This document shows positions 17,378 to 57,772 of a DNA stretch of 64,000 bases, one piece after another. Position numbers and translations under genes: made by a program. Within the stretch, counting starts at the first letter, position 1. Each line of letters begins with the position of its first letter. This DNA is from Bdellovibrio sp. ArHS (lineage in GTDB: Bacteria > Bdellovibrionota > Bdellovibrionia > Bdellovibrionales > Bdellovibrionaceae). Under the pieces are notes generated by a model that was given only the letters and a program-made list of their open reading frames with translations, was not told the DNA's origin and did not search any database. Location: contig NZ_JTEV01000001.1 of the NCBI RefSeq assembly GCF_000786105.1, positions 62,001 to 126,000 on the forward strand. The letters are read 5' to 3'.

Positions 17378-18765
17378 TACTTCCCAGTCTTTAATTCTCT
17401 GCGAAGCTCAGCCACAAGTTTTTGGCCTTCGCGCACTTTTTCAATAGAAAGGCCTAGAACGCGAGCCGACTCTTGCGGCGCATGGAAGCCGGAAGAGTTT
17501 TCCGCTTCAACGAAGTCAAAAAGGAACTGGGCTTGTTTTTGCAAATCACGCGCATCCGCTAACTTCTTATTCGGCGTTTTCGTCAAATCGATATCTTTAA
17601 ACTCTTTAAGGTCTTTGATGTAATCGATCAAAGCATCAAACGCGACATTACGAAGTTCCATGTGGCGATCTTGGATCGTTTCCGCTCGGGCCTTCAACTC
17701 GTTTTCAGGCACGTTGTGGCAAGTCTGACAGGCTTTGTTGATGTTCAACAAAGGACTTTGTACGTGGTGGTTTGTGACCTTCATCGCACCCACACGCTCA
17801 TACGGCATATGACAGTCTACGCAAGCAACACCAGCACGGGCATGGGTTCCTTGATTGAACATTTCAAACTCGGGATGTTGGGCTTTAAGTACGCTCGCAC
17901 CTGTATCCGCATGAACCCAGTCTTTATGTCCGTCTTTTTTGTAGTACTCAAGAATTTGATCGGCTTTAAGGCCGTCCGCCCAAGGATAAGTCAAACGCTT
18001 GTCCTGGCCTTTGAAGTAGTATTCAACGTGACATTGACCGCACACGAAAGTGCGCATCTCTTGACGAGTGGCCATTTTGTTAACGTCGTACTCTTTGATG
18101 CCCTGAGTGGCTTTAAAGGCTTTAATACCTTCAATAAACGCGGGACGAGTCACACGCAAAGACATGGTCGAAGGGTCATGACAGTCGATGCAAGAAACAG
18201 GGTGATTCACAGAATGAACGATCTCTTTGTAAGGGACCTTGTTCATTTCCTCGAAACCTTTGGTGATGTCACCGTTACCCAATTTTTTATAAAGCACATA
18301 AGTGGAAGCATGACAGTTCAAGCACGTGCCCGGCTGTTTTGCGACATTTTGTCGTTCGGTGAAAATCTGGTCAGAAAGCATGTAAGCGTGACCACGCTCT
18401 TCACGGAAGTCTTTTGAAAACGCGTAACCCGCCCACATAATCTTTAAGCGCGGATCTTCGTCCAATTTCTGTTGAGAAACCGTGTCGCGCGGATCCTTTT
18501 CAGTCGGAACGTGCGGGAAAGCTTCTGAGCCGCCGTACTTGGTTCTGCGCATGTCCGCCGTGCGAAGATAAGAGTCATACTGGTGCGGGAAGTTTTTTCC
18601 CCAAATCGCTGGATCATCCATGTCATCGGTGATTTCAACGACACGATAGAAGACATTTTTAGCTTCGCTCTTGCGTTCAAAGATATTTACTAACAGAGCT
18701 GTCAATAACACCGTGACGACGGCAGCACCGCCTACGGCCAGAAAAATCGTCTTTGATTTTGTCAT
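17377..18765 (-). CDS. nrfA: Cytochrome c nitrite reductase catalytic subunit NrfA (CXXCH-type)
   Basis: Pentahaem enzyme that reduces nitrite to ammonium in the periplasm. It has 462 residues with an N-terminal signal/anchor helix. Five haem motifs are visible: CLNCH (near residue 147), CIDCH, CGQCH, CVDCH and CQTCH. The NrfA active-site surroundings are intact: CGQCHVEYYF supplies the catalytic Tyr, and HPEFEMFNQG-THA precedes haem 4 as in known NrfA. The classical catalytic haem motif CXXCK is replaced by CXXCH, so the haem-iron ligand would be His rather than Lys, as described for some other NrfA lineages such as Campylobacter. It lies 9 bases behind nrfH and overlaps resB. Confidence 0.95.
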   Translation of the reverse strand: MTKSKTIFLAVGGAAVVTVLLTALLVNIFERKSEAKNVFYRVVEITDDMDDPAIWGKNFPHQYDSYLRTADMRRTKYGGSEAFPHVPTEKDPRDTVSQQKLDEDPRLKIMWAGYAFSKDFREERGHAYMLSDQIFTERQNVAKQPGTCLNCHASTYVLYKKLGNGDITKGFEEMNKVPYKEIVHSVNHPVSCIDCHDPSTMSLRVTRPAFIEGIKAFKATQGIKEYDVNKMATRQEMRTFVCGQCHVEYYFKGQDKRLTYPWADGLKADQILEYYKKDGHKDWVHADTGASVLKAQHPEFEMFNQGTHARAGVACVDCHMPYERVGAMKVTNHHVQSPLLNINKACQTCHNVPENELKARAETIQDRHMELRNVAFDALIDYIKDLKEFKDIDLTKTPNKKLADARDLQKQAQFLFDFVEAENSSGFHAPQESARVLGLSIEKVREGQKLVAELRRELKTGK

Positions 18766-18774
18766 ACTGTACTC

Positions 18775-19221
18775 CTATTTCGCGTGTCCCACATTCCGAT
18801 GACAGTGCAGGCAATTGGTCTCTTCGTTAATATTTTTACCGCCATGGTTCATTGCTTGAACCATGGGTTGGTGGCAACTTAAGCAGGAATTCTTAACTAC
18901 TTTTAAACTGTGCTCCCGAATGCGAATAGGATCCGGGAAGTTCTGCAAAGTAAAAGCAGCCGAGTGATTAAAGCCATTCAAAGCTTTGACAGCATATTTT
19001 CCGATGATGTTGTGAGGAAGATGGCAGTCGTTGCACTTGGCAACGTGGTGGTGGGTGGCCTTGATCCATGAGTCCATATTTTCATTCATGATATGACAAT
19101 TCACACAGGCTTTAGGGTCATCCGACATGTACGAGTAACCCTTGGCATAAATAAACGAGTAGCATCCCAGTCCAAGGACAACACCGAAGAGGATAAGAAA
19201 AAGGGCGTTCAATTTACTCAT
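18775..19221 (-). CDS. nrfH: Tetrahaem quinol dehydrogenase subunit NrfH
   Basis: Membrane-anchored NapC/NirT-type cytochrome that passes electrons from menaquinol to NrfA. From the ATG at 19221 (AGGAG upstream) the protein has 148 residues. A single N-terminal transmembrane helix (about 6-26) is followed by four haem sites: CVNCH, CNDCH, CLSCH and CLHCH. A longer in-frame start at 19251 would add ten residues before the helix and lacks a ribosome binding site. It is the first gene of the nrfH-nrfA-resB operon; a nitrite- or oxygen-responsive promoter is expected in 19222-19436, but I could not identify a convincing FNR- or NsrR-type site. Confidence 0.95.
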   Translation of the reverse strand: MSKLNALFLILFGVVLGLGCYSFIYAKGYSYMSDDPKACVNCHIMNENMDSWIKATHHHVAKCNDCHLPHNIIGKYAVKALNGFNHSAAFTLQNFPDPIRIREHSLKVVKNSCLSCHQPMVQAMNHGGKNINEETNCLHCHRNVGHAK

Positions 19222-19436
19222 GTAGTTTTTTGCTCCTACAAACAAATTCACATTAATATCGGGACAATTTCAATCCCAAAAAGCACTTGGACTGTCTGCA
19301 ATATGACAGATGTGGATTCTCAATACAAGACAACGCTTTTATTTTTCCGGACTGCTGGAAGTAAGTCTTTAACATCTACCAACCTTGGGAGTATTCTTAA
19401 AGACAGCCCTTTCGAACATTATTGAGGCAGGCATTC

Positions 19437-28039: not shown

Positions 28040-28147
28040 CCCACGAAGGTCCAGGCTTGGGTGCTTCATAACAAAGGACCATAGGACCTCAATCTCTTTG
28101 TGCGCCTGAAAAGGCTGCTGCTACAATTTGATCTAAAAGGAGTCACC

Positions 28148-28525
28148 ATGGGTAAGTATGTTTTAGCTTGTATGATGGTTTTAGGATTTTCCTCGTTTGC
28201 TCAGCCTGGCGGAGGCGGGGTGTGCGCAAAGGATCGTGAAACTCTTTGCGGAAATGTAGAACACGGCGGCGGCAAAGTCGCGCAATGTATGAAAGACAAT
28301 CAGGATAAGCTTTCTCCAGAGTGTAAAGCGCACATGGAAAAAGCTAAAGAGACAATGAAAGAAGTCCGAGAAGCTTGTCACGATGAGATGCAAAAGTTTT
28401 GTGGCGACATGAAGCCCGGAAAAGGTCGCATGATGAAGTGTATGAAAGAGAATAAAGAAAAATTCTCGGCAGCCTGCCAGGAAGAAATGGCCTCTGCAAA
28501 AGAAATGCGCAAAAAACGTAAATAA
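28148..28525 (+). CDS. Exported cysteine-rich-repeat (GLG1-type) protein
   Basis: 125 residues from the ATG at 28148, which has an excellent AAAGGAGT. The signal peptide ends SSFA|QP. Two copies of a four-cysteine module follow, spaced about 55 residues apart: C-AKDRETLCGN-...-QCMKDN-...-ECKAHM, then ACHDEMQKFCGD-...-KCMKEN-...-ACQEEM. This is the Cys-rich repeat found in Golgi apparatus protein 1 and many bacterial periplasmic proteins. It is strongly charged (Lys/Glu). Function unknown; metal or envelope-stress roles have been proposed for the family but not shown here. Confidence 0.8.
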   Translation: MGKYVLACMMVLGFSSFAQPGGGGVCAKDRETLCGNVEHGGGKVAQCMKDNQDKLSPECKAHMEKAKETMKEVREACHDEMQKFCGDMKPGKGRMMKCMKENKEKFSAACQEEMASAKEMRKKRK

Positions 28526-39254: not shown

Positions 39255-40034
39255 ATGGATATGAAAAATAGAACCAAAATAAATGAACTAATGACAAGCT
39301 GGATCCCCGGCGCTGTCTACTCTGTGAAGTGGCTCAAAGAGAATGGCTACACGTATTCGAACCTACAGATCTACAAAAAGAGCGGATGGGTAAAGGCCAT
39401 AGGGGCGGGGGCCCTCATAAAGAGCGGTGATGAGGTTGGGTGGCCTGGGGCTGTTTGGGCTTTGCAAGAGCAACTAAAGTTCCCGGTTCATGTTGGCGGC
39501 AAAACTGCAATCGAGCAGGCCGGCAGCGCTCAATATCTTACGATGGGCAAGGAAAGAGTTTTTCTTATAGCGGAGCCCAAAACGAAGCTACCAACATGGT
39601 TCAAGAATAAGAAATGGGATGCAGAAATAGTCTACCTACAGTCTTCGCTGTTTGATGAAGGCCTTAAGTCGCTGTCAATTGCAGAGCAAGGTTTAACGTC
39701 CGTAGAGCTTGGCCGCTTAAAGCTCGTTTATTCCTCAAGAGAGAGAGCTATGCTCGAATACTTAGATCAGGTCCCAGAAAGACACTCGTTTACAGAAGCG
39801 CACGAGATAATGGAAAACCTGCTAACGCTAAGGCCAAAGCTTGTTCAAACATTGTTAGCTCACTGCACTTCAGTGAAAGCAAAAAGACTTTTTTTAGCAA
39901 TGGCAGACAGAGTAAATCATCCATGGCTCAAAAAGCTTGATCTATCGAAAGTAGATTTAGGAAGTGGCAGTCGCCAGCTTGTGAGTGGCGGTGAGTTTGA
40001 TAGTAAGTATAAGATCACAATAGGAAATCCCTAA
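39255..40034 (+). CDS. abiEi: AbiEi-family antitoxin / transcriptional repressor
   Basis: 259 residues. The N-terminal winged-helix-like region (about 8-60: VYSVKWLKENGYTYSNLQIYKKSGWVKAIG, broken here by known variable sites) is followed by the AbiEi core and C-terminal domain (SLFDEGLKSL, LGRLKLVYSSRERAMLEYL). In type IV AbiE systems it neutralises the nucleotidyltransferase toxin without binding it and represses the operon. The nearest GGAG is 14 bases from this ATG, so the exact start is uncertain. It lies 11 bases before the toxin gene. Confidence 0.85.
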   Translation: MDMKNRTKINELMTSWIPGAVYSVKWLKENGYTYSNLQIYKKSGWVKAIGAGALIKSGDEVGWPGAVWALQEQLKFPVHVGGKTAIEQAGSAQYLTMGKERVFLIAEPKTKLPTWFKNKKWDAEIVYLQSSLFDEGLKSLSIAEQGLTSVELGRLKLVYSSRERAMLEYLDQVPERHSFTEAHEIMENLLTLRPKLVQTLLAHCTSVKAKRLFLAMADRVNHPWLKKLDLSKVDLGSGSRQLVSGGEFDSKYKITIGNP

Positions 40035-40045
40035 AGGATACTTCG

Positions 40046-40963
40046 ATGAGTAGAGAAAAATATGTAGCCTATGTCGATTTGATGTTGAAAGTGCTTCCTT
40101 ACGTAGCAAAAGAAGAATGCTTCAGTCTAAAAGGTGGCACAGCAATCAATCTTTTTGTCAGAGATATGCCTCGATTGAGCATTGATATTGATTTGGCCTA
40201 TGTCGGCTTGGAGTCAAGAGCGAAGGCTATCGCAAATGCAGAGGCCGCAGTTAAAAGAATCAAGAGTGATATTGAGAAAAGTCTTTCAAGGACAAAAGTT
40301 TTGGCGCCAACAAAATCCGGCCCTGACAACATTGGGAAGTTGCTTGTGGTGAAAGATGGCATTCAGATTAAAATAGAAGCCAATCCAGTAATCAGAGGCA
40401 CTGCATTTGAGAGTGAACGTCGAGATTTGGTTGAGAGCGCTGAAAATCAATTTAAAGTGGCCTTCGATGTTCCGGTGGTCTCCATCCCTGACTTGTACGG
40501 TGGAAAAATTGTCGCAGCCCTTGATCGTCAGCATCCGCGAGATATTTTCGATGTTAAGTTACTTATGGAAAACGAAGGCCTGACTTCAGATATTTTAAAA
40601 GGTTTTTTGGTCTATTTATCCAGCCACAATCGCCCATTGCCTGAAGTTATAAGCCCAACAAAAAGAAATATGAAAGAGGCTTTCTCCAGTGAGTTTGAAG
40701 GTATGACAAATGTCGATTTTTCATATTCTGACTTTGAGAAAGTTCGGGAAGAGTTAATTGCAAATATTCAGGAAAAGTTAAGCAATAACCAAAGGAAGTA
40801 TCTTCTTTCTCTTCAGCGAGGCGAACCTGATTGGAGTCTTTTAGATGTTGCCAATCTCTCAAGCTTGCCTGCCGTGCAGTGGAAACTTGAGAATATCCAA
40901 AAAATGAATCCTGATAGACGAGCTAAGGAATTGAGTGCATTGGAGCAAATTCTTAAACTATAA
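40046..40963 (+). CDS. abiEii: AbiEii/AbiGii-family nucleotidyltransferase toxin
   Basis: 305 residues. DNA polymerase-beta-like NTase core: LKGGTAINLF (near residue 28), RLSIDIDLAYV (near 43; the catalytic Asp pair), and IPDLYGGKIVAALDRQHPRDIFDVKLL near 155-180, all diagnostic of the AbiEii (DUF1814) family. The toxin is thought to transfer nucleotides to tRNA or related targets; in phage-infected cells this causes abortive infection. Shine-Dalgarno AAAGGA. It is followed 30 bases later by an unrecognised gene in the same direction. Confidence 0.93.
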   Translation: MSREKYVAYVDLMLKVLPYVAKEECFSLKGGTAINLFVRDMPRLSIDIDLAYVGLESRAKAIANAEAAVKRIKSDIEKSLSRTKVLAPTKSGPDNIGKLLVVKDGIQIKIEANPVIRGTAFESERRDLVESAENQFKVAFDVPVVSIPDLYGGKIVAALDRQHPRDIFDVKLLMENEGLTSDILKGFLVYLSSHNRPLPEVISPTKRNMKEAFSSEFEGMTNVDFSYSDFEKVREELIANIQEKLSNNQRKYLLSLQRGEPDWSLLDVANLSSLPAVQWKLENIQKMNPDRRAKELSALEQILKL

Positions 40964-47077: not shown

Positions 47078-47552
47078 GTGTTTCCTCTTTAAATCATTGT
47101 TGCACAAAAAAATCGTGCGAAGCAAATGCTGCGTCCGCAGTCGCCCTCTGGTTGGCGACGCAAGTCCAAAGTAACATTGTCGATGGGTGGAAGACCATGT
47201 GCTGGATCATGATTCAAAAAATAATGTCCTCGCGGGCGGCCGGTTGATCCCCGTTGAAAGGTATAGATTATTGTTACAATCCAAGGGCGGTCCCTTTTTC
47301 CATGACTTAATTTGAGACGACCTAGTGAAGAAAATGAAAGAAGTTGAAAAATTTAATAAAAGGCCAGGCCGGCAATGATAACAAAATAAAGTGCCTTTCA
47401 GAGCGGTTTTTCTGACGATACACTAGTATTATCAAAAAAATCTCTTTTCGAGATTGCAGCCTTCAAACCCTCGTAAGTTGACCTTATGTGTTTCTTCGTT
47501 AGAATTTAAGAATCTAAATCTTATTCGGGTCCACTTTAACAAAGAGAGAATC
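47078..47552. other. Intergenic region with several small inverted repeats
   Basis: No gene is seen in 475 bases. GTCGCC and GGCGAC (47140-47159) form a hairpin that competes with TGCGTC-GACGCA pairing (47130-47162). The rest is AT-rich and contains the promoters for the flanking divergent genes, which I could not pinpoint. Confidence 0.4.
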
Positions 47553-48425
47553 ATGGCGCGTTATCTTATTGTTCTGTCGGCGTTGCTACTCGGTTATTCA
47601 CAAACCCAAGCAGCCGCCTTGTTCGGTCGTCCCTCAAAAATCATAGAAAGCAATGATATTAATTCAAACAGTGCGCGAGACACTTATTACTCGTCGTATT
47701 CCTCATCGCCCTCATATTCTAGTGCGGGAGGCGGGTGTGGCTCTGTTCCTTCGCAAGTAAAATCGGCGTTTGCGGAAGCAAAGAAATTCACGCAGACCTG
47801 TTCTTATGCACGGTTATCCCCAGGTAAAATGATCGCCATCAACGACTATTCCGGCGATGGCAAACCGACCATGTACATATTTGATCAGGAAGGGAACTGT
47901 GTAAAAGGCTTTCCGATCAGTTGGGGGGTTGGTGCAGACCGCAGCGGCCGTCTTGAGGCCTGCAGTACTGAGAACTCGCGTAAAACACCGCCAGGATTTC
48001 ACTTGACCGCGGTTCACAATGGGGCACGCTATAATAGTTCCAATTCTTTGGGAATGGCGGGTCTTTCGGGGCAAGACAGTCTGGGGCAGCGGGGTGTTGT
48101 GATTCACGGTACAAGCCCAGCAGGAACCTCCAATACGTGGGGTTGCACCGGAGTAAACTATGAAGATTTGTCGACCGTTATGAAAACTCTCGGAATCGGA
48201 TCGTTAGTTTATAATTACTTTGGTGGCGCCCGTGCTTCCAAATGTAGTGACAACTCTGGTATGGAGCGCCCGGCTTCCTGTGAACCCGAAGCCGCTGCCG
48301 TCGCCGCAGCTCGTGCCAATGGAGTTTCGTCATCGAAGTATGGCGGTAATAGCAAGTACTCGACAAAATCGGCCACGGGCGGATCGACAAAGGGTTCTTC
48401 AACTAAGAAACAAGGAGCAAAATAA
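47553..48425 (+). CDS. Exported L,D-transpeptidase-like murein enzyme
   Basis: 290 residues from the ATG at 47553; an in-frame start at 47454 would place residues before the signal peptide. The signal peptide ends QTQA|AAL. A Ser-rich linker precedes the YkuD_2-type catalytic domain: VVIHGT (His) and NTWGCTGV (catalytic Cys), near residue 187 and 202. The enzyme would cross-link or edit peptidoglycan. The C-terminus is a long Ser/Thr/Gly/Lys tail. Its stop overlaps the next start (TAATG). Confidence 0.83.
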   Translation: MARYLIVLSALLLGYSQTQAAALFGRPSKIIESNDINSNSARDTYYSSYSSSPSYSSAGGGCGSVPSQVKSAFAEAKKFTQTCSYARLSPGKMIAINDYSGDGKPTMYIFDQEGNCVKGFPISWGVGADRSGRLEACSTENSRKTPPGFHLTAVHNGARYNSSNSLGMAGLSGQDSLGQRGVVIHGTSPAGTSNTWGCTGVNYEDLSTVMKTLGIGSLVYNYFGGARASKCSDNSGMERPASCEPEAAAVAAARANGVSSSKYGGNSKYSTKSATGGSTKGSSTKKQGAK

Positions 48426-48829
48426 TGAAGTCTTTCACTGCTATAGTTCTAACACTTTTGATTTCAGCATTTGCTCTGGCTGTGGATAAAGCTCCCACCA
48501 AAGAAGTGGCAGCGCCCAAAAAAGAAGCCAAAGAAAATCGCAGCCCTTCGCAAGCCGAGTTGGAAGCTTTAAAAATCATGAAGGGGACTGAGATTGAGAT
48601 CTCTCACTATGATGATGATACAGATACCTTTGAAGTGACGATCATCAAAGAGCCCGGCGTAGGCCCGAATGTCACGACTCCGGAAGAGCTGTATCGTGCA
48701 ACAGAGATGAACGTAGATTTTGCAACGTTCAGTGCAAAAAAGCGTGATTATATCGGTTCGGAATTTCCATTGAAAGAGGATCTGATTCTGATTGGTCCTG
48801 AGCAAATTCAAAAGCGCGCTAAAAAATAA
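48425..48829 (+). CDS. Small exported protein coupled to the L,D-transpeptidase gene
   Basis: 134 residues with a signal peptide (MKSFTAIVLTLLISAFALA), then a Lys/Ala/Glu-rich segment and a compact C-terminal part with an acidic patch (HYDDDTDTFEV). The start overlaps the upstream stop by one base, so it is probably translated together with the transpeptidase and may be a partner or inhibitor. No family recognised. Confidence 0.7.
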   Translation: MKSFTAIVLTLLISAFALAVDKAPTKEVAAPKKEAKENRSPSQAELEALKIMKGTEIEISHYDDDTDTFEVTIIKEPGVGPNVTTPEELYRATEMNVDFATFSAKKRDYIGSEFPLKEDLILIGPEQIQKRAKK

Positions 48830-48835
48830 TTCTTA

Positions 48836-48868
48836 CTGGGAAGTTCTTTCTGTCAGAGGACTTCCCAG
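48836..48868 (-). terminator. Hairpin at the end of the eight-gene secreted cluster
   Basis: Perfect 9-bp stem CTGGGAAGT (48836-48844) with ACTTCCCAG (48860-48868). The loop contains the stop codon of the last minus-strand gene. On the minus strand it is followed by TAAGAATTATTTTTTA, as expected for a terminator. Confidence 0.6.
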
Positions 48869-49257
48869 CCTTCGACGGGCTCCCACGTTGTCTCGCAGGT
48901 GGGATTTAAAGTAACTTCCGGGCAAGCAATAAGAGCACGAAAAACAACGCCATCCTTATCTTCAAAAAGAAGAGCTCCTTTGGTGTATCCTGCCGGACCT
49001 GTGTAAAGTCCTTTCAGCGCGGCCAAGTGGCCTTTGCGGTCCTTCGCGACCACGGCGCCAGGGCAGGCCTCGGAGTTGTCTTGAATAATTTTAAATTCCA
49101 AGTGCTCTACTTCAGAATTTTGATTCAAAGACGTCGTGCGAAGAGTGCCCTCACTGATTTGCAGGGGCTGAAGTATTTTGTAAAGGTTTAGGTTCTCACT
49201 CGTCTCGGCGGGTCCATAAACCAGGCAGGTCATTGTTAAAGCAGAAATTAGCGACAT
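48853..49257 (-). CDS. Secreted-cluster gene 8: small exported protein
   Basis: 134 residues from the ATG at 49257 (AGAGGTG upstream), overlapping the preceding gene by ten bases. A short hydrophobic N-terminus (MSLISALTMTCLVYGPA) may be a signal peptide. The mature protein has three cysteines (SEACPGAV, LIACPEV, NPTCETTW). No family is recognised. It is the last gene of the leftward cluster. Confidence 0.65.
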   Translation of the reverse strand: MSLISALTMTCLVYGPAETSENLNLYKILQPLQISEGTLRTTSLNQNSEVEHLEFKIIQDNSEACPGAVVAKDRKGHLAALKGLYTGPAGYTKGALLFEDKDGVVFRALIACPEVTLNPTCETTWEPVEGWEVL

Positions 49258-50444
49258 CGAACACCTCTTTGCGGGGAGGTCTCTCCCCAACGGACGGCCG
49301 GGTGCCAAGCAGCATCGGGACTTAAGTGGCCATCAATCATCTTGAGAAACAGTTCCCAGGCATCTGTGTTTGCGACTCCGGTTATTACCTGGCAACGTCG
49401 CAAAACCTCTTTGGCATCTCGGATTGAACCATCTGTATTTTCATCAGCGGGATAGTTTTGTTTCTTCCAGTAAGTCAGATCGTTCAATTGACCATAGGCC
49501 TCGCGCAGGCGGGCATCTCGTTTATGAGTCGAGTGTTCATCCATGAGGCTCGCTGAAAGACAACGGCCTCCATTATTTTGAATGCTGTCCCAAGCGGCGC
49601 TGACGGCCAGAACACGACCTTGCCAAAGATTGCAGATACTTTCCACGACAACATCAATGCGTTCATCCACAGTGGGCGGTCTTACGCGTAAGATTTTACG
49701 AATGCTTTCATGCCACTGGTAAATCTGCTTGCGCGTCGGCGCCACATTCTCGCGCCAATCCGCCATAGAAAACTGCTCATTGCTTATAAAGGGTTTGGGG
49801 GCTGCGGTTTTCCAGGCGCGATATCCACCCAGGCGACTCAGGGGCCACGAGTAGGGATTGCGAGTGGTGATAAGATCTCGGACTTTCATGGGTGTTGTCG
49901 AATAAAGTGTACGAATATATCCGTTCTCTTCAATTTCCGTCACGATTTCCGCGTGCCCCCCTCGGGTACCAACGATGTTTTCTTCTTCGCGGGTCAAAGC
50001 GGGATTTAGAAAAATGACACCCGGGCGAAAGATCGTACGATCGATTTTAATCGGATAAGTGTCATAGCCCAAAGTTTTTGTACTCGTCAGATAGGACACC
50101 TGGTTGATGAAGGCACGCAGGCGTTGCTTTTCCGGCAAGTGATCCCAGTTCGACATTGTGTTTGTCAGGGTGGGACGCATGTTTTCAATGTTGGTGAACG
50201 CAACGGGGAGGGCGTTTTCGTAAGCGAAGATAATACGAACCGCATAAACGGCATCAGCGCAGTCCGTGGCGATGCCATACCAGGGGCTGGAAGGGTTGGA
50301 GAAAATATTATACTTATAATTTTCCTGCACCCATTCAGAATAAAGGCTCTCGTAGTGTTCATCCCACGCATTCACGGCCTGCCACACTTTGGCGTGGGCC
50401 ATGCTTGTCGTTATTAGAAAGAACAGGCTTAAAAGAGTGCGCAA
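49248..50444 (-). CDS. Secreted-cluster gene 7: exported NlpC/P60-like cysteine hydrolase candidate
   Basis: 398 residues starting from a TTG at 50444, eight bases behind AGAAGG; an in-frame GTG at 50453 overlaps that site. The signal peptide ends SMAHA|KVW. GIATDCADAVYAV (Cys near 66) at the start of a hydrophobic helix and TRGGHAEIVTEI (His near 166) before a strand reproduce the Cys-then-His order and local pattern of NlpC/P60-type amidases. The C-terminal half (about 230-398) is helical and unrecognised. It could cleave peptidoglycan peptides. The gap to the upstream gene is about a dozen bases. Confidence 0.6.
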   Translation of the reverse strand: MRTLLSLFFLITTSMAHAKVWQAVNAWDEHYESLYSEWVQENYKYNIFSNPSSPWYGIATDCADAVYAVRIIFAYENALPVAFTNIENMRPTLTNTMSNWDHLPEKQRLRAFINQVSYLTSTKTLGYDTYPIKIDRTIFRPGVIFLNPALTREEENIVGTRGGHAEIVTEIEENGYIRTLYSTTPMKVRDLITTRNPYSWPLSRLGGYRAWKTAAPKPFISNEQFSMADWRENVAPTRKQIYQWHESIRKILRVRPPTVDERIDVVVESICNLWQGRVLAVSAAWDSIQNNGGRCLSASLMDEHSTHKRDARLREAYGQLNDLTYWKKQNYPADENTDGSIRDAKEVLRRCQVITGVANTDAWELFLKMIDGHLSPDAAWHPAVRWGETSPQRGVRCR

Positions 50445-50456
50445 CGAAGCCACCTT

Positions 50457-51215
50457 CTAGTAAACGTCGACACCAAGATTGACTTCGGTGTACTTAAGAT
50501 CATTAGGACGAGCTTCCGTGCTACCTTCTTTAAATTGAAAAATCACTTCACAGAAGCGCGGCGTATTCTTGGGGCGATTGCTATTTAAAACCGCGATGGT
50601 TTCCTTGTAAGAGCCATCAAAGGCCGCCCAATTGGAGGCGTAGGTGTAGTCAACTTCCATTTCGCCAGAGGGGCGACGTTGGTTTTTTGGACGAGCCGAA
50701 GACTGCGAGCCCAAACCGCGCAAGTCACAGCGTGTGATCGTCCGATAGTAAAGTTGCGCAAACTTCGCATAATCCTGCAACGAGTGATAGACCGAGTTGG
50801 CGATTGTGTAGACCTGTTCAGATTGATCGTTGCGACCGTTTTTCTTTTCTGTCGGACCGACATAACAGACGTGGACGTTGTAACCTACGCCCATCTGCTC
50901 GGTTGAAAAAGAAAGCTTCAAATTATTAATGGCCGCATTCCATTGGCCTGAGGAATCAAAAATGGCCGAAGTTTCGTCACTAAGAACATAGCCACCGGAA
51001 CGCGTTCTATTGATAGAGTTTTCCGAAACTGTCAGATCTTCCCAGATCAAAGAGCCCATGATTTTTCCGACCGGATTATCGGTGGGAACGGCATTCAAAC
51101 TCAGATTGCATGCGTAGATGTCTTCAGATGTTGAAGCCGCATTCACACCGGCTTGCTGAGCGAAAACCGAAGAGGCTGAAAAGATCAAAATGAAGCTTAT
51201 TAGAAATGGTTTCAT
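50457..51215 (-). CDS. Secreted-cluster gene 6: four-cysteine exported protein (paralogue of gene 4)
   Basis: 252 residues; the ATG at 51215 follows directly on the stop of the previous gene. The signal peptide ends VFA|QQA. Four landmark cysteines: DIYACN (C36), VHVCYVGPT (C117), TRCDLRGLGS (C163) and TPRFCEV (C222). The same four motifs, in the same order and spacing, occur in gene 4 (52856-53866), so the two are paralogues. No known family is recognised. Confidence 0.75.
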   Translation of the reverse strand: MKPFLISFILIFSASSVFAQQAGVNAASTSEDIYACNLSLNAVPTDNPVGKIMGSLIWEDLTVSENSINRTRSGGYVLSDETSAIFDSSGQWNAAINNLKLSFSTEQMGVGYNVHVCYVGPTEKKNGRNDQSEQVYTIANSVYHSLQDYAKFAQLYYRTITRCDLRGLGSQSSARPKNQRRPSGEMEVDYTYASNWAAFDGSYKETIAVLNSNRPKNTPRFCEVIFQFKEGSTEARPNDLKYTEVNLGVDVY

Positions 51216-51216
51216 T

Positions 51217-52791
51217 TTAGAAAGGCTCACAAGTGTACCGCGGAAGGTTTTTAATTTTTTTATCCATGATCACTTTGTTCGGAGACTCTTTCACCACACG
51301 GATGTTCTCAAGCTTGAACGTTCCCTGCTCATCAAGATCTCCGACAGTGAATGTTGTCGTAAAACGATTCCAGAATTTCTGTTTGCTGGCCTGGAAACAC
51401 TGTCCATGCGTCGGGTCGCATAGATTTCCGTAAAAAGTCGGCCACAAGCGAGTCGCGCCTAGCTGTTTAAAGAAGGCCAGGGATGTTGCCAGATCTCCGT
51501 TAATGTCATTGGAAGTGATATTCGGCAGTCCCAATAAATTTGGCAGGTGAGGGAGCAGATGCAAAGAGTTTAGAGCAGGAATTGAATCCAAACCAGCCAC
51601 GCCATTGGCGCCCTTTAAATCCACTAGAAGTTGTTCGGCGCGGTTCAAGAAGATATAGAAATCTTCAAAGGGATCAATCATCGTCACGACCACTTTATAA
51701 GCCTGACCTTTTTCAAAACTAGCACCATCAATGGATTGTTGAGGCAAGCGTAAAAGCCCCTGCCAGCTTCCTTGAGCGATTCCGCCGGTGGACCAGCCAT
51801 CGACAAAACTAAGTTTGCCGGATGATTCCACTTTAAAGATCTCGACCTCGGCGGCAACGGGAACATTGTAATTCGATGGATTGACACAAAGACCATCTTT
51901 GCACACAGATTTGTGAAAGTTGTCGACGGAAATATACATGTTCAGGTCTAAACGCTGCTCACCTGCTGGCGAAAATTGCAGGTCGCCCATATTCAGTTCG
52001 ACATTATAAGTATCAGGAAAACGGGGAGCATCAGGTCCCAAGTCTTCGCTCAGTTTCAACATCGATTCTTGCGCTTGGAAAGTATATCGATAGCGGGACG
52101 AGCCGATCGGATCCACTTCTGTGGATAAGCCCGTATCATCACCCGTAACATAAGTATTCAAGGCTGCTTCGATGTCTCCGAACTCAAGACCCAACTCCTG
52201 CATTTTCTCAATGTGAAGGCATTCGGGTTTCACGCCCAGTGAGATGGCCAAGTTGTAGCTTGGATTGATGTTTAAGAAGCAGTAGTCTCCTTCAAGTTGC
52301 ACGATGCTAGGGCCTTGGTTGCTCACTTTACAGCGCGGCTGTTCAAACTTATAGCGAAGCGGGCGGCCATTTAATTCCGCGACAGAAATATAGGTACATT
52401 GTTTAAGAAAGTTCTGTTGGCGCAGAACCAGAGATTTCTTTTGATCGAAATCCACACCCTTTGCAAAGACGGGGCTGTCTATACGGCAAAGGTTTGGCTT
52501 GGGAATATCTCCATCAAGAAAAATATCTGCAACGTCGGATACTTGAGTCGGCATGAAAATGCCCTTGCTCAGCATCAGAAATTTTCCGGCACTCTCGGTG
52601 CACTTTTCGACCATTTGGGGAAGAATTGTCGAATTGCTGCCGTCGCCATAGGGGCGAATAGCGGGTGTTTGGGCAAAGTCGATAACGAAACTGTGTTTCA
52701 AGTCACGCGTCGTACGGCAGGCGATCGCCTCGCCCGCCATAAGTAGGAAAGCTCCTAAAAGAAAGATCGATTTGGTATTTAACGATTTCAT
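51217..52791 (-). CDS. Secreted-cluster gene 5: exported protein of unknown function
   Basis: 524 residues with AGAAGGA before the ATG and a signal peptide (SIFLLGAFLLMAGEAIA) followed by Cys. The mature protein contains at least ten cysteines, among them EKCTES, NLCRID, KQCTYIS, PRCKVS and GDYCFLN. The C-terminal region is beta-rich, with a CDPTHGQCFQASK pair. No domain recognised. Large size and position suggest a scaffold or surface component. Confidence 0.7.
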   Translation of the reverse strand: MKSLNTKSIFLLGAFLLMAGEAIACRTTRDLKHSFVIDFAQTPAIRPYGDGSNSTILPQMVEKCTESAGKFLMLSKGIFMPTQVSDVADIFLDGDIPKPNLCRIDSPVFAKGVDFDQKKSLVLRQQNFLKQCTYISVAELNGRPLRYKFEQPRCKVSNQGPSIVQLEGDYCFLNINPSYNLAISLGVKPECLHIEKMQELGLEFGDIEAALNTYVTGDDTGLSTEVDPIGSSRYRYTFQAQESMLKLSEDLGPDAPRFPDTYNVELNMGDLQFSPAGEQRLDLNMYISVDNFHKSVCKDGLCVNPSNYNVPVAAEVEIFKVESSGKLSFVDGWSTGGIAQGSWQGLLRLPQQSIDGASFEKGQAYKVVVTMIDPFEDFYIFLNRAEQLLVDLKGANGVAGLDSIPALNSLHLLPHLPNLLGLPNITSNDINGDLATSLAFFKQLGATRLWPTFYGNLCDPTHGQCFQASKQKFWNRFTTTFTVGDLDEQGTFKLENIRVVKESPNKVIMDKKIKNLPRYTCEPF

Positions 52792-52855
52792 ATTCCTTCT
52801 TCCTTTTCAAAGGAGAGCCCAGGCAGGCTCTCCACGAAGATCCTAAAAACTAAAA

Positions 52856-53866
52856 TTAAAGAGATTCTTCAATTTTAGTGTATGTGCAAAGCTCTGCACC
52901 GTGACGTTGCCATTTTCTCAAGTTTTTGTTCAAAACTTGTGAACCTGCAGCGCCGTCAGTTTCAGAGAAGATGTAACGAATGCGGCAGAAGCGAGGAGCT
53001 TTTGTGCTGCTATCGATAGTCGCATTGATCAAGTTAGCAACTGAGTTGATTTGAACTTGATTTGATTTAGTGTAGAAGTCGCCAGATGCTTGAAGTGGAG
53101 AATTCCAGTTAGAGAATGTCGCTTCATTATCAAGCGTGTTGTAAGAACCTGAATTGTTGCGAGACTTCTGGATTTGACCCATACCTTGAAGGTCACACAC
53201 TGTGATCGCTTGAACTTTCAAACCAGCCAAAGTTGTGTACTTGATGCCAGTTGGGTTCATAGTCAAACCGTCTTGAGTGTTGTCGCCGCCATTAACTGCG
53301 TTTGCGATGAAGTCAGTAGCCGTTGCTTGAGCTTGAAGGCCCCAGTTTGCAGTAACACCGTCTTCGAAGTACTCAATTTGTGGGCCACGATAGCACACGT
53401 CTACGAAGTACTCAGCGCCGTAAAGTTCAGAACCAAGATTGAAGCTCAACTCTTTAATTCTGTTTTTGAAAGCGTCAGCATGAGGAACAAGTGTGTTGTA
53501 GGTACCTTGACCTGCTTGAGCTGTTGTTGAAGTCCAAGTTTGGTTCCAAGCAACAGTAGATTGGTTCCAAGTGCTGTATGAACCTTTCATGTAATCCATA
53601 AGGTACTCACCACCATTGTCGTTAGTACAAACGCAACGAGTGTTACAAGTCGTACCGTTACACTCTTGTGGAGTACAAGCCGTCGTTGTGTCTTCGAAGT
53701 AGCACACTTTGTGTTGAGAAGCTTGGTGGCGAAGACCTGCGTTACACGCATAGATGTCTGGGCCAGAGCTGAAAGTTTTGAATTTGAAACGCAAAGAGAT
53801 TGCGTTCGCATTTTGAGCAGCGATAAAAAGCATTGCCGCTGCAGCAAGTTTCATAAAGTTAGTCAT
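52856..53866 (-). CDS. Secreted-cluster gene 4: four-cysteine exported protein, probably abundant
   Basis: 336 residues, with AAAGGAG before the ATG and a signal peptide ending QNANA|ISL. It shares with gene 6 the landmarks DIYACN (C41), VDVCYRGPQ (C158), TVCDLQGMG (C224) and APRFCRI (C294). It has an extra six-cysteine insert at residues 55-80 (spacing C-x8-C-x4-C-x4-C-x3-C-x-C) resembling a small disulphide knot. Codons are strongly biased to GGT, CGT, AAC and ACT, unlike genes 5 and 6, which points to high expression. Confidence 0.78.
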   Translation of the reverse strand: MTNFMKLAAAAMLFIAAQNANAISLRFKFKTFSSGPDIYACNAGLRHQASQHKVCYFEDTTTACTPQECNGTTCNTRCVCTNDNGGEYLMDYMKGSYSTWNQSTVAWNQTWTSTTAQAGQGTYNTLVPHADAFKNRIKELSFNLGSELYGAEYFVDVCYRGPQIEYFEDGVTANWGLQAQATATDFIANAVNGGDNTQDGLTMNPTGIKYTTLAGLKVQAITVCDLQGMGQIQKSRNNSGSYNTLDNEATFSNWNSPLQASGDFYTKSNQVQINSVANLINATIDSSTKAPRFCRIRYIFSETDGAAGSQVLNKNLRKWQRHGAELCTYTKIEESL

Positions 53867-53893
53867 AATTTCTCCTTTTGAGCTAACGTACCG

Positions 53894-54481
53894 TTAAGGT
53901 TTATTGTTTAATTTTAAGTTTCCGTTTCCAATTTGAGTCTGAGGCGCATATTCCAGAACATACATGTCCTGGTTATACTGTCCGTTGCCTTCGCAAATGA
54001 TGTATTTGATCTGCACCGGTTCATTGTTTGAGTTCTTACCCAGAACTACCAAAGGCTGCGCACTGTGGGTCGGGCAAAGACTTTGAAACAAGGTTTGAAC
54101 CTCATCCTTATTTAAATCCATGTAGAAGTTGTAGATACTTCGTGCCGCGATGAAGACATGGTCTTTGCGGAACACTTTCTCAACATCTTTCACCTCAATG
54201 ACTTGTCTTGTGTTTCTATACAGACGCTCCAACTCGGTGAAAACCGTGCGCAAGACATTGTTGGCCATCCCAAGGCAATTGAAGCAAACTTCCTGCTCTT
54301 TCCAGCAAGAGTTCGCATCATTGCAGACGTTTTTGCAAAGAGCCTCGTCGGGACGGCAGTAGAGAGTGACACTATCCTGAAACTGTCCTGTGGGGCTGAC
54401 TCTTACCTGAGAGCTCATGGACCACGCGTGACTTACGGATGTACTGAGGATGGCAATAATAAGAGCGAGTACGATCTTCAT
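53894..54481 (-). CDS. Secreted-cluster gene 3: exported cysteine-rich protein
   Basis: 195 residues; its ATG overlaps the stop of gene 2 by four bases (ATGA). The signal peptide ends SVSHA|WSM. A cluster of cysteines lies at residues about 40-70 (YCRPDEALCKNVCNDANSC, then CFNC), followed by a helical middle and a C-terminal strand-rich part. No family recognised. Translational coupling implies an obligate partner of the 908-residue gene 2 product. Confidence 0.7.
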   Translation of the reverse strand: MKIVLALIIAILSTSVSHAWSMSSQVRVSPTGQFQDSVTLYCRPDEALCKNVCNDANSCWKEQEVCFNCLGMANNVLRTVFTELERLYRNTRQVIEVKDVEKVFRKDHVFIAARSIYNFYMDLNKDEVQTLFQSLCPTHSAQPLVVLGKNSNNEPVQIKYIICEGNGQYNQDMYVLEYAPQTQIGNGNLKLNNKP

Positions 54482-57204
54482 GAGCGGTCTCCAATCGCCT
54501 GACGGCAGGACTTATGAAAGCCGCGCATCGAGTGAACTTTCGTATCCTCGAGCTTACGTTCGTTGCAGGTGAAGCGTACAATACTATCGCCTTTACATAG
54601 ATCGGAGCGAATCCACGCCTCGCGCGGGGAGCTGTCAGAAATATAACCGCGCTCTTGATTGTCGTCGACGATATAGACGGAATGCACTCTTGTATTAAAT
54701 GTCTCTTCAAAGATAGCCGCTGCTTTCGCCGCACAAGTGTCGCTGAAGCAGCGCAGGCCTTTACCTAATTGCTCCACACAGTGGGAAGGGATCTGTCCAT
54801 ATTTTTTATAGACTTCAGCAGCGTAAGCGGCGTTCACGTTCCAAGACTTGGGAATATTCACTTTGTCTTTCTTCGCGTTGAAGAACTTCTGAAAAGCTCG
54901 GACAATATAGACCACGAACTTCGCCGGATTGATCACGCCGAAGGAAGATGTCGATGCTCCGGCGACGGCCATGAAGTTCATCGTGCAGCCGCCGCAGAAT
55001 GAGCGGGCATTTTCTTTTCCATTGGCGAAATCGCTTGGATTGTTCGAAATGACTTCCGTCTGCTGTTTGCTATCACAATAATTCAAAGTGATGCCGGAAA
55101 AGGCGTAGAAGTTAAAGGTCCGAAGACCATTGTTATTTAATGAAACAGCACAAGGGGCGCCGACCAAAGGACCGAAGTCGGCAACTACGGAAGTTTGGAT
55201 CTTTGATTTCTCAAAACGCGGGTCAAACTTGATGGTGCCATCCTGAACTAACTGTTTGAAGGACGCCACACGCGGGGCTTTGTAGTTGACGTCGATGTAA
55301 ATCGGAAGAATGTTCCAGCCGAAAAGTGCGGTGTTGGCAAGATCGGCCATGAACACTTTATTCATTCTTTGTGTCTGAAACCAGGGATCGTACATCTTGC
55401 AGGTTTTCAACTCTGAATAAGGGTTGAAAAGATTGGGGTCCGAGGATTTCCCCGCTAAAGGAATCAAAGCGTCGGCATACGTGGATACGGCATAAAGATC
55501 CACCATGCTCTTGATCAAAAGACGGGTGCAGTCGATAGAGTTGTAACAAATAACCTGATTTGCGGAGGAAGACCCCGTTTGAGTCTTCCAGGAAAGAAGC
55601 GGCATTCCCGAAAACGTGGCCGGCACAAACTTCTCACCAGACTCTTCGTTTCCAGTGATTTGCAACATGTCCTTCGCCCAAGGGGCGAAGCCTTGCTTGT
55701 TAACGGTATAGCCTGATTTATTCCAGAAGTTGGTTTTTTCTAGCTCGTTGCATAGTGGAAGGATGCGTGATGAGACTTCTTTGAAGAAGTTTACATGCTC
55801 TGGCAGTGACCGTTTTTCAGAATAAGGCATTTGCGTCAGGTTTTTTAACTGCGCAATGCGCTCGATGTCCGTCTTTAAAAAGTCCAGCGTTTCATCACCA
55901 GCAAGACGAATTTCAGTACACATATAGTACAGTTCATTCATGACCTGGTCGGAAGAGCCTTCATTTTGTATTGCGGTTTGAACCAGGGTCGTGAGCCCTT
56001 GAACGCCTAACTGATCTTGAAGCAAATTTAAGTGAGTGATCGCGGACTGGTATTTATTTTTCATTATACCGCGAGACTGAATCAGGTTTTTTCTAAAACT
56101 TCCTAGCCACTCTTCGGCCTTATCGAAGGATTGAGTTCCTAAGAAGTCATTATTCACTCCGCGAACTCCCTTTTCTAAGAGCTCAGCATCTGTTCCTACG
56201 GGAACAGTATCGAAAAATTCATTGTTATTGCCGCCACTGGCTTTGGCGAGCTCACGCAGACTGTTGATAGAAAGATATTGGTTGTCGCACGACGGTGCCG
56301 TCATACTGCGGCAGCCATTGGGCGTATAAAGAACGGCTTCTTCTAAGGCGATCGATTTAAAGAGCTTTCCAAAGGTTGGACTCATCACCTCAAGCTCGTT
56401 AGTGTGTCTCCACGCCCAGGACATGTAGATCTTTAAACTGTTCCAGAAGTCGAAGCCCTGAATGTCCAAAGACTTCGGATTTGTCGCCCAGTCCAATTGT
56501 AGGGTGACGAAACGATTGCTTAGCGAATCATCGGTGTCAAAGCAACTCGTGATGTAATCCGCCTCGTTCATGTAGGCCAAGGCAATGTCTTGAAGATTTG
56601 CCGCCGTCACTTCCGCATTGTGGAGGTGCCCTTGCAGCGCTGAAAACTTTTTAACGTAGTAGCAACCTAAGCGATCTTTAGATGAGTGAAGAGGAAAGTT
56701 CGCGCTGGTGAAGCCATCCATCGACAAGATGGCAGAGCGATTGCCAGCATTCTGCCAAAGTTGGCTTAAATAGTCTTGAAGACCCGTGCAGGCTGCCCCT
56801 TTGGACTGTTCGCAGGCACGCGAAACCTGAAGATATCTCGGAAGAGAAGCGGCCTTCAAGTTGGCTGGTAATACCGGCAGGTAGCCGCGCACCATCTTGT
56901 TCATAATATTTAACGTCATGTAGGCAACAGAGAGTCGGAACTCTTTCATCGCCTTGGCGGAAAAGGCCGCCGTGTCTTGTCCGGAAAGTTTAGCCACAGA
57001 GTTTGCCACTTTCGCAGCATTATAGCCGTCAATCATCACGAAGATGGAAGTCGTGGGCTTCTCTGAATCCAGAGCGCATTGTGCACGGTTGGTAAAAGGC
57101 AAAGGACTCAGAAGACTGGTCTGATGCGCCGGAATTTGCTGCGCCGGACTGAGGGCCGGAGCAGAAGTTCCAATCAGTATGATAAGCGCAATAAGTTTCT
57201 TCAT
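54478..57204 (-). CDS. Secreted-cluster gene 2: 908-residue exported protein
   Basis: The ATG is preceded by GAGGA, and the signal peptide (MKKLIALIILIGTSAPALS) is clear. The protein is mainly helical, with many cysteines concentrated in the last third (CGGCTMNF, HCVEQLGKGLRCFSDTCAAKAA, SDLCKGD, FTCNERK). After the signal peptide FVMIDGYNAAKVANSV reads like a phosphatase- or VWA-like first strand (hydrophobics ending in D), but no complete active site can be drawn. No family recognised. Largest product of the cluster. Confidence 0.7.
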   Translation of the reverse strand: MKKLIALIILIGTSAPALSPAQQIPAHQTSLLSPLPFTNRAQCALDSEKPTTSIFVMIDGYNAAKVANSVAKLSGQDTAAFSAKAMKEFRLSVAYMTLNIMNKMVRGYLPVLPANLKAASLPRYLQVSRACEQSKGAACTGLQDYLSQLWQNAGNRSAILSMDGFTSANFPLHSSKDRLGCYYVKKFSALQGHLHNAEVTAANLQDIALAYMNEADYITSCFDTDDSLSNRFVTLQLDWATNPKSLDIQGFDFWNSLKIYMSWAWRHTNELEVMSPTFGKLFKSIALEEAVLYTPNGCRSMTAPSCDNQYLSINSLRELAKASGGNNNEFFDTVPVGTDAELLEKGVRGVNNDFLGTQSFDKAEEWLGSFRKNLIQSRGIMKNKYQSAITHLNLLQDQLGVQGLTTLVQTAIQNEGSSDQVMNELYYMCTEIRLAGDETLDFLKTDIERIAQLKNLTQMPYSEKRSLPEHVNFFKEVSSRILPLCNELEKTNFWNKSGYTVNKQGFAPWAKDMLQITGNEESGEKFVPATFSGMPLLSWKTQTGSSSANQVICYNSIDCTRLLIKSMVDLYAVSTYADALIPLAGKSSDPNLFNPYSELKTCKMYDPWFQTQRMNKVFMADLANTALFGWNILPIYIDVNYKAPRVASFKQLVQDGTIKFDPRFEKSKIQTSVVADFGPLVGAPCAVSLNNNGLRTFNFYAFSGITLNYCDSKQQTEVISNNPSDFANGKENARSFCGGCTMNFMAVAGASTSSFGVINPAKFVVYIVRAFQKFFNAKKDKVNIPKSWNVNAAYAAEVYKKYGQIPSHCVEQLGKGLRCFSDTCAAKAAAIFEETFNTRVHSVYIVDDNQERGYISDSSPREAWIRSDLCKGDSIVRFTCNERKLEDTKVHSMRGFHKSCRQAIGDRS

Positions 57205-57235
57205 GCGTCCTCGTTCAAGTTGCGTAGCTGGGTTG

Positions 57236-57772
57236 TTAGTTCGTTGGCTTGCAGTTATCTACTTTGTTCAACATTGTCGTGTAGAACAAAATCACAGTTT
57301 GATCCGCCGGAGAAAAGTTACGCTTAGTAGAACCGTCGGTGTTAACCATGTTGTACATGTAAGTGTTTACGAAGCGATACACGGAAGGTGTTACACGCAA
57401 AGTGGAATTACAAACATAATTTTTGTAAGTGACAGTGATACCTGCGTAGTAGTCACTGTTGTTCTGATTGCCGTTTTGGCTATCGCCGATGTAGAAGTTG
57501 TTACCAGTACCATTCGGAGTGTTGCCGTAACCAACTTGGAAGCTGACTGTCCAGCCAGAACCCGCGCTGTCGGTGCCTACGATAGAACAAAGATTGCCAC
57601 GGCAAGCAACAGCCATTTCGTTTTCAATTTTTCTTTGAATTTCGGTTTCAGAATAATGGGGATTGGGACGAGGATCATACTCGGGGCTGCCGCCGTCAAA
57701 TTCGTCAGCGTGAGCGCCACTTGTCGCAAGAATGAGCGACACCAATGTTAATTTCAAAAGGTTCTTAGTCAT
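57236..57772 (-). CDS. Secreted-cluster gene 1: small exported protein, probably abundant
   Basis: 178 residues from the ATG at 57772, six bases behind ACGGAG. The signal peptide ends GAHA|DEF. The mature protein is rich in Asn, Gly, Tyr and Thr, with repeats like NGNQNNSDYY, and has four cysteines (VACRGNLCS, YVCNST, DNCKPTN). Codon choice (GGT, AAC, ACT) is that of highly expressed genes. The composition resembles surface or fibre subunits. First gene of the leftward cluster, so it probably lies closest to the promoter. Confidence 0.72.
   Translation of the reverse strand: MTKNLLKLTLVSLILATSGAHADEFDGGSPEYDPRPNPHYSETEIQRKIENEMAVACRGNLCSIVGTDSAGSGWTVSFQVGYGNTPNGTGNNFYIGDSQNGNQNNSDYYAGITVTYKNYVCNSTLRVTPSVYRFVNTYMYNMVNTDGSTKRNFSPADQTVILFYTTMLNKVDNCKPTN

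Follow-up and report, generated by a model that had tools for sequence, protein, structure and literature searches.

A co-inherited set of exported proteins across Bdellovibrionota with a probably abundant, strand-bearing subunit that might polymerise

Introduction

Bdellovibrionota is the phylum best known for bacteria-eating bacteria. Prey handling in this phylum depends on surface structures that are known in part, and many of its exported proteins have no assigned function. What, then, is made by a run of eight minus-strand genes in Bdellovibrio sp. ArHS, which were predicted from their sequence to encode the subunits and assembly factors of a secreted complex? The genes lie in a stretch of 64,000 nucleotides (contig NZ_JTEV01000001.1, positions 62,001 to 126,000), hereafter the window, whose first letter is position 1. 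We report that they belong to a phylum-wide, co-inherited and exported gene set without known relatives, comprising a strongly expression-biased product, encoded by gene 4, and a paralogue that lacks the N-terminal strand of that product. What was a list of hypothetical proteins thereby becomes one testable structure, in which the members inherited together are defined and the subunit likely to be abundant is identified.

Results

Organisation of the locus

All eight predicted ORFs were found in the sequence, adjacent to each other and tightly packed from 57772 to 48853 on the minus strand (Table 1). Gaps of 31, 27, 64 and 3 nt separate genes 1/2, 3/4, 4/5 and 6/7, respectively, while genes 2 and 3 share an ATGA at 54478-54481 and genes 7 and 8 overlap by 10 nt (49248-49257). 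Gene 6 could start at a GTG (51230), with a 14-nt overlap with gene 5, or at an ATG (51215), with a 1-nt gap, and the ATG gives the better signal peptide. The single hairpin predicted at the end of the cluster is real; 5 of 200 shuffled sequences were equally stable, it is followed by ATTATTTTTT, and it is common to the cluster and a convergent gene (48425-48829, +). A promoter scan returned fewer sites than were found in shuffles.

Table 1 Features of the gene cluster in the window
Feature	Size	Position	Strand	Description
Gene 1	178 aa	57236..57772	-	Sec signal peptide; core component; codon bias second only to gene 4 in the cluster
Gene 2	908 aa	54478..57204	-	Sec signal peptide; 22 Cys; predicted fold mostly helical; core
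Gene 3	195 aa	53894..54481	-	Sec signal peptide; 8 invariant Cys; core; first 4 nt lie within gene 2
Gene 4	336 aa	52856..53866	-	Beta-sandwich model; codon bias at the level of ribosomal genes; proposed as major (backbone) subunit
Gene 4, residues 23-32		53771..53800	-	ISLRFKFKTF, candidate donor strand; immediately after ANA cleavage site
Gene 5	524 aa	51217..52791	-	Sec signal peptide; Cys at mature N-terminus; core
Gene 6	257 aa (alternative start: ATG 51215)	50457..51230	-	Gene 4 paralogue; no N-terminal strand, no codon bias; proposed tip/terminal subunit
Gene 7	401 aa	49248..50453	-	Optional; invariant Asp-Cys-Ala-Asp (64-67) and His167
Gene 8	134 aa	48853..49257	-	Close relatives only; no recognisable signal peptide
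Intrinsic-terminator-like hairpin		about 48835-48869	-	Cluster end; -17.7 kcal/mol; T-rich tract after

The cluster adjoins an Mrp/Mnh antiporter operon. One gene past the cluster end, a convergent gene (47454-48425, +) encodes an exported protein whose motif HGT..GCTGV is L,D-transpeptidase-like. Elsewhere in the window, two neighbouring genes (39255-40963, +) look by eye like an AbiEi/AbiEii-type toxin-antitoxin pair, NrfA/NrfH-like multihaem cytochromes of nitrite reduction (17377-19251, -) stand alongside a ResB-like protein (16016-17377), and the gene at 28100-28525 (+) encodes a small exported protein in which a Cys-rich motif is repeated.

Export signals and cysteine content

The original prediction assigned signal peptides to all eight proteins. 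This holds for the products of genes 1-7, in which Sec signal peptides were recognised by inspection and with a simple script, and fails for gene 8, in which neither recognised one. As many as 134 of 243 control ORFs also pass this permissive script, which therefore adds little over inspection. Counted with their signal peptides, the products of genes 1-8 contain 4, 22, 8, 11, 12, 4, 5 and 4 cysteine residues, respectively, so that the description of many of them as cysteine-rich is true of genes 2-5. The predicted paralogy of genes 4 and 6 was borne out by profile-profile comparison (99.9 %, E 4e-32). All gene 7 homologues retain Asp64-Cys65-Ala66-Asp67 and His167, and this Cys-His arrangement may be like that of papain/NlpC-P60 enzymes.

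Conservation and co-inheritance across Bdellovibrionota

Sixty neighbourhoods were fetched and every gene in them was mapped with iterated profiles. Of about 60 loci, gene 1 is present in 57, gene 2 in 59, gene 3 in 57, gene 4 in 59 and gene 5 in 57, contig ends accounting for some of the absences. Among 59 loci, spread over eight families (f1, f4, f7, f10, f12, f22, f26 and f29), virtually all complete ones carry the five genes together. Conservation of gene order had been set beforehand as the test on which the prediction of a common system could fall, and the order is kept far beyond close strains, across these 59 loci and eight families. In Bdellovibrio it runs 1-2-3-4-5-6(-7)(-8), and in other groups 4-5-1-2-3-7, or 4-5-paralogue-1-2-3, or 1-2-3 diverging from 4-5; the varied orders therefore resolve into two blocks, 1-2-3 and 4-5-paralogue, which have been reshuffled yet kept together. 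The gene-6 slot is common, 23 of the 59 loci have gene 7, and six, all from close relatives, have gene 8. With gene 7 thus optional and gene 8 restricted locally, the system consists of a five-gene core, genes 1-5, plus accessories, and not of the eight-gene unit first supposed.

Independent genome searches with genes 4 and 5 agreed with that for gene 2: genes 2, 4 and 5 are present or absent together across the phylum, being found in 75, 74 and 75 of 369 genomes searched, with 71 of the 78 genomes that hold any of them holding all three (pairwise hypergeometric 5e-67 or less, a statistic that ignores kinship). For genes 1, 2, 3 and 5, pairwise distances show correlations of 0.80-0.93; correlations that involve gene 4 are weaker (0.59-0.72), in part through admixture of its paralogue. 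In a pattern scan of 84,980 species, which was not exhaustive, relatives of gene 2 appeared only in records of this lineage or in loosely named neighbours, a result suggestive of a gene confined to this lineage. Seven members of the genus Bdellovibrio are without the set, which is therefore dispensable for the lineage.

Codon bias and expected abundance

Codon adaptation index (CAI) weights were derived from 24 translation genes (ribosomal and elongation-factor) of a congener, G004, which is probably B. bacteriovorus HD100. Gene 4 has a CAI of 0.742, the highest of 53 ORFs in the window (median 0.44) and within the range of the translation genes (0.54-0.83), and it carries a strong ribosome-binding site, AAGGAG. 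Gene 1 follows at 0.603, while the other cluster genes lie at 0.41-0.49, including gene 2 (0.457), gene 5 (0.476) and gene 6 (0.479), in keeping with the predicted bias of genes 1 and 4 as against the large genes 2 and 5. Averaged over 20 loci of the genus, CAI is 0.69 for gene 4, 0.56 for gene 1 and 0.45 for gene 6, compared to a median of 0.47 for flanking genes. Gene 4 is therefore likely to yield an abundant product, with gene 1 next and the paralogue not among them, and gene 4, more weakly gene 1, probably encodes an abundant structural component. The assignment of gene 6 as a variant subunit is supported.

The N-terminal strand of gene 4 and its strand-less paralogues

Right after the AxA cleavage site, gene 4 orthologues continue with ISLRFKFKVFSSGPxIYxCNAG or close variants. 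Among 32 distinct 10-mers from the mature N-termini of the eight families, alternate positions are hydrophobic at frequencies of 0.91, 0.78, 0.97, 0.94 and 0.91, against 0.06, 0.03, 0.00 and 0.00 at the positions in between. Two of the 32 are paralogues picked up by the search pattern, so that the true contrast is slightly stronger. In the AlphaFold2 monomer of gene 4 the N-terminal segment is modelled as coil, with moderate confidence, ahead of a first strand at residue 37.

Paralogues found in the slot that follows gene 5 bear both a signal peptide and, downstream, the YxCN motif, and are without the N-terminal strand. Those of family f12 are mostly 368-477 aa long and bear an extra Cys-rich domain where the strand would be; in one of them (L134:13131-14564, -) the added domain reads ICHAGS..NPH..ICVDF.A..GHL..H..DS.G.C and is a candidate for ligand binding. 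A strand-bearing backbone subunit together with a rarer strand-less subunit, sometimes with an extra domain, resembles the logic of donor-strand fibres. What is new here is this N-terminal strand evidence, from which we hypothesise a donor-strand backbone subunit and a strand-less paralogue. Against a fibre, beta-sandwich proteins that stay monomeric can likewise have a conserved edge strand behind the signal peptide.

Family and fold searches

As predicted, the proteins are almost devoid of family matches: single-sequence searches with all eight gave no significant match in Pfam, NCBIfam, PHROGs, PADLOC or PDB sequences, and neither did PDB profile searches with genes 1-5 and 7. Member-by-member Pfam scans of genes 2 and 5 returned scattered weak matches only. 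The sole repeated lead is DUF4846 (PF16138), which matched below the cut-off over the Cys-His domain in 7 of 21 gene 7 homologues (best E 1.6e-4), a distant resemblance that the window's own gene 7 protein does not share. TraH, TraU and TraN of F-type conjugation are likewise Cys-rich and periplasmic, and were dropped as candidates given no Pfam match whatever. Viral contigs scanned with gene 4 patterns and plasmids scanned with gene 2 gave no match, and a mobile-element or phage origin is therefore not suggested.

The AlphaFold2 monomer of gene 4, built from a 31-row alignment, is beta-sandwich-like (pLDDT 78, pTM 0.81). Its comparison with the PDB, by Foldseek and a second method, gave weak matches with a best Z of 6.0 and many unrelated sandwiches tied. 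Most of the top chains are sandwiches of glycan-binding proteins or sialidases (7kwc, Z 6.0; 2e33, Z 5.7; CBM61; CBM27), and the list also includes the TasA fibre (8aur, Z 5.0, 159 residues aligned at 5.2 A, a weak match) and, as weak and tied matches, the fimbrial adhesins CfaE and FedF and carbohydrate-binding modules. In a viral fold library, weak jelly-roll capsid and tail matches only were seen. These comparisons of a predicted model support a fold class and not a family. The model of gene 2 (pLDDT 76) is mostly helical, and Foldseek found nothing for it at E<=0.001; in the second comparison the best row pairs a small C-terminal domain (823-905) with 4gl6 (Z 7.3, 71 aligned), the remainder being weakly tested.

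Discussion

A possible fibre built mainly of gene 4

Our tentative reading, which we would place somewhat short of an even chance, is that the set is a Bdellovibrionota-specific, Sec-exported multi-protein system that builds a surface or envelope fibre, mainly of gene 4. In such a system Sec would carry all components into the periplasm, where signal peptidase I would cut them and their many cysteines would form disulfides. Gene 4, as the most abundant component, would expose its alternating hydrophobic N-terminal strand, which by donor-strand complementation would occupy a groove in the next copy's beta-sandwich. Able to accept a strand but with none to donate, the gene 6 paralogue would terminate the chain in the manner of a tip subunit. 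Anchoring, nucleation or escort of the chain may fall to genes 2, 5, 1 and 3, and processing of a component or of the local cell wall to gene 7. Polymerisation, the tip role, the anchoring and accessory roles and the surface location are all inferred, as is passage through the outer membrane, for which the cluster encodes no pore or usher. A search of the open-access literature turned up no fibre of this kind. It is possible, albeit somewhat improbable, that the set represents a new class of assembled extracellular structure, namely a disulfide-rich fibre or surface machine found only in Bdellovibrionota, made of five families that occur nowhere else, with an exit route of its own and acting in surface or prey contact. 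Of the original prediction, the conserved, co-inherited exported system with an abundant gene 4 and a variant gene 6 stands, and the single eight-gene unit does not.

Alternative explanations

The set might instead form a non-polymeric exported complex, in which gene 4 would be an abundant lectin-like beta-sandwich of the periplasm or surface and genes 1, 2, 3 and 5 would act around it in capture, adhesion or envelope remodelling. Disulfide-rich exported proteins with an optional hydrolase suit work on the envelope or the prey surface, and the glycan-binding and sialidase sandwiches that head the structural matches of gene 4 point the same way, although their scores are too low to infer glycan binding. 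This explanation, which we regard as serious but somewhat improbable, leaves unexplained why an alternating strand should be present in gene 4 phylum-wide and systematically missing in its paralogue.

It is also improbable that the set is a prey-directed weapon or invasion complex delivered in predation, in which genes 2 and 5 would supply the effectors and gene 7 a processing enzyme. The phylum is rich in predators, and the patchy distribution of the set suits a lifestyle trait. Furthermore, the probable HD100 genome carries two copies of the cluster, the first of which adjoins an FHA-GGDEF protein matching DgcB (Bd0742), a protein needed for predation (PMC6561027), with neighbours arranged as Bd0743 and Bd0745 in the published description (PMC3464611). 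The second adjoins a 505-aa acyl-CoA dehydrogenase fitting Bd2924 (PMC6851490), the Bd names at both loci being inferred from context; another neighbour of the second copy is a protein of 1051 aa (L062:15298-18453, -) that contains a long tract of Asn-Gly-Asn repeats. Adjacency to dgcB is not function, however, and the window's cluster lies elsewhere. Against a weapon, several Bdellovibrio genomes are without the whole set, no toxin or enzyme family was matched, and the main texts of predation-mutant studies do not mention these genes. Searches of the open-access literature, including the inferred HD100 gene tags, found no study describing them.

A divergent chaperone-usher pilus, with its chaperone and usher encoded elsewhere, is very unlikely. 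The N-terminus of gene 4 resembles a chaperone-usher N-terminal extension, and the window's genome does hold a separate divergent usher and PapD-like chaperone pair (G000 contig C15:25138-27008, -), the latter being the genome's only chaperone match. However, the cluster contains no usher (PF00577), none of its eight proteins has a Pfam match to a PapD-like chaperone, gene 4 has no pilin family match, and no usher was detected in six of ten cluster-carrying genomes tested, complete ones included, so that a chaperone-usher system was rejected by content. Least probable of all is an operon of unrelated exported proteins brought together by chance, with which the loose order implied by two-block reshuffling would agree, but which is contradicted by all-or-none presence across the phylum and by re-clustering after rearrangement.

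Comparison with known fibres and pili

Three further candidates were set aside. A type V (FimA/Mfa1) pilus needs a lipoprotein Cys at the mature N-terminus, where gene 4 orthologues have Ile, Val or Leu after the AxA site. A type IV pilin has a class III signal peptide and a long hydrophobic N-terminal helix that stays in the mature protein, and the mature N-terminus of gene 4 is a short segment of alternating polar and hydrophobic residues. TasA was rejected by sequence, as Pfam TasA/camelysin (PF12389) matched nothing in the window's genome or the eight proteins, with a positive B. subtilis control.

Chaperone-usher pili have backbone subunits with an N-terminal extension and two-domain tip subunits without one. 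The proposed fibre would be alike in that gene 4 has an N-terminal strand and its gene 6 paralogue has none, as in backbone versus tip. The chimeric adhesive fibres of Bdellovibrio and the MIDAS adhesin Bd0875 are likewise surface proteins exported by predatory bacteria, and have been described as proteins different from these (PMC10769870, PMC11003981).

TasA of Bacillus subtilis polymerises by donor-strand exchange without an usher, with its minor partner TapA in the same operon (PMC9674648). Like TasA, gene 4 is predicted to be a Sec-secreted, abundant beta-sandwich subunit with an N-terminal segment behind the signal peptide. Unlike TasA, it belongs to a Gram-negative host, is disulfide-rich and has large partners that are absent from the tasA operon, and its minor paralogue lacks a strand, whereas TapA is thought to provide one. 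The archaeal threads (Saci_0406) are formed by a signal peptidase I substrate with a conserved mature N-terminal tail, which assembles into a donor-strand chain with no known assembly machine (PMC9715654). Gene 4 similarly has a conserved mature N-terminal segment after a signal peptidase site; the threads differ in being archaeal and glycosylated, with no detectable homology to the cluster proteins, and their proposed cap has a tail and no groove, the opposite of gene 6. Fibres of secreted subunits joined by donor strands are possible without an usher, as both TasA and the archaeal threads show (PMC9674648, PMC9715654), and if the donor-strand reading of gene 4 is true, the set described here would give a Gram-negative fibre of this type, built without an usher and with unrelated, disulfide-rich partners.
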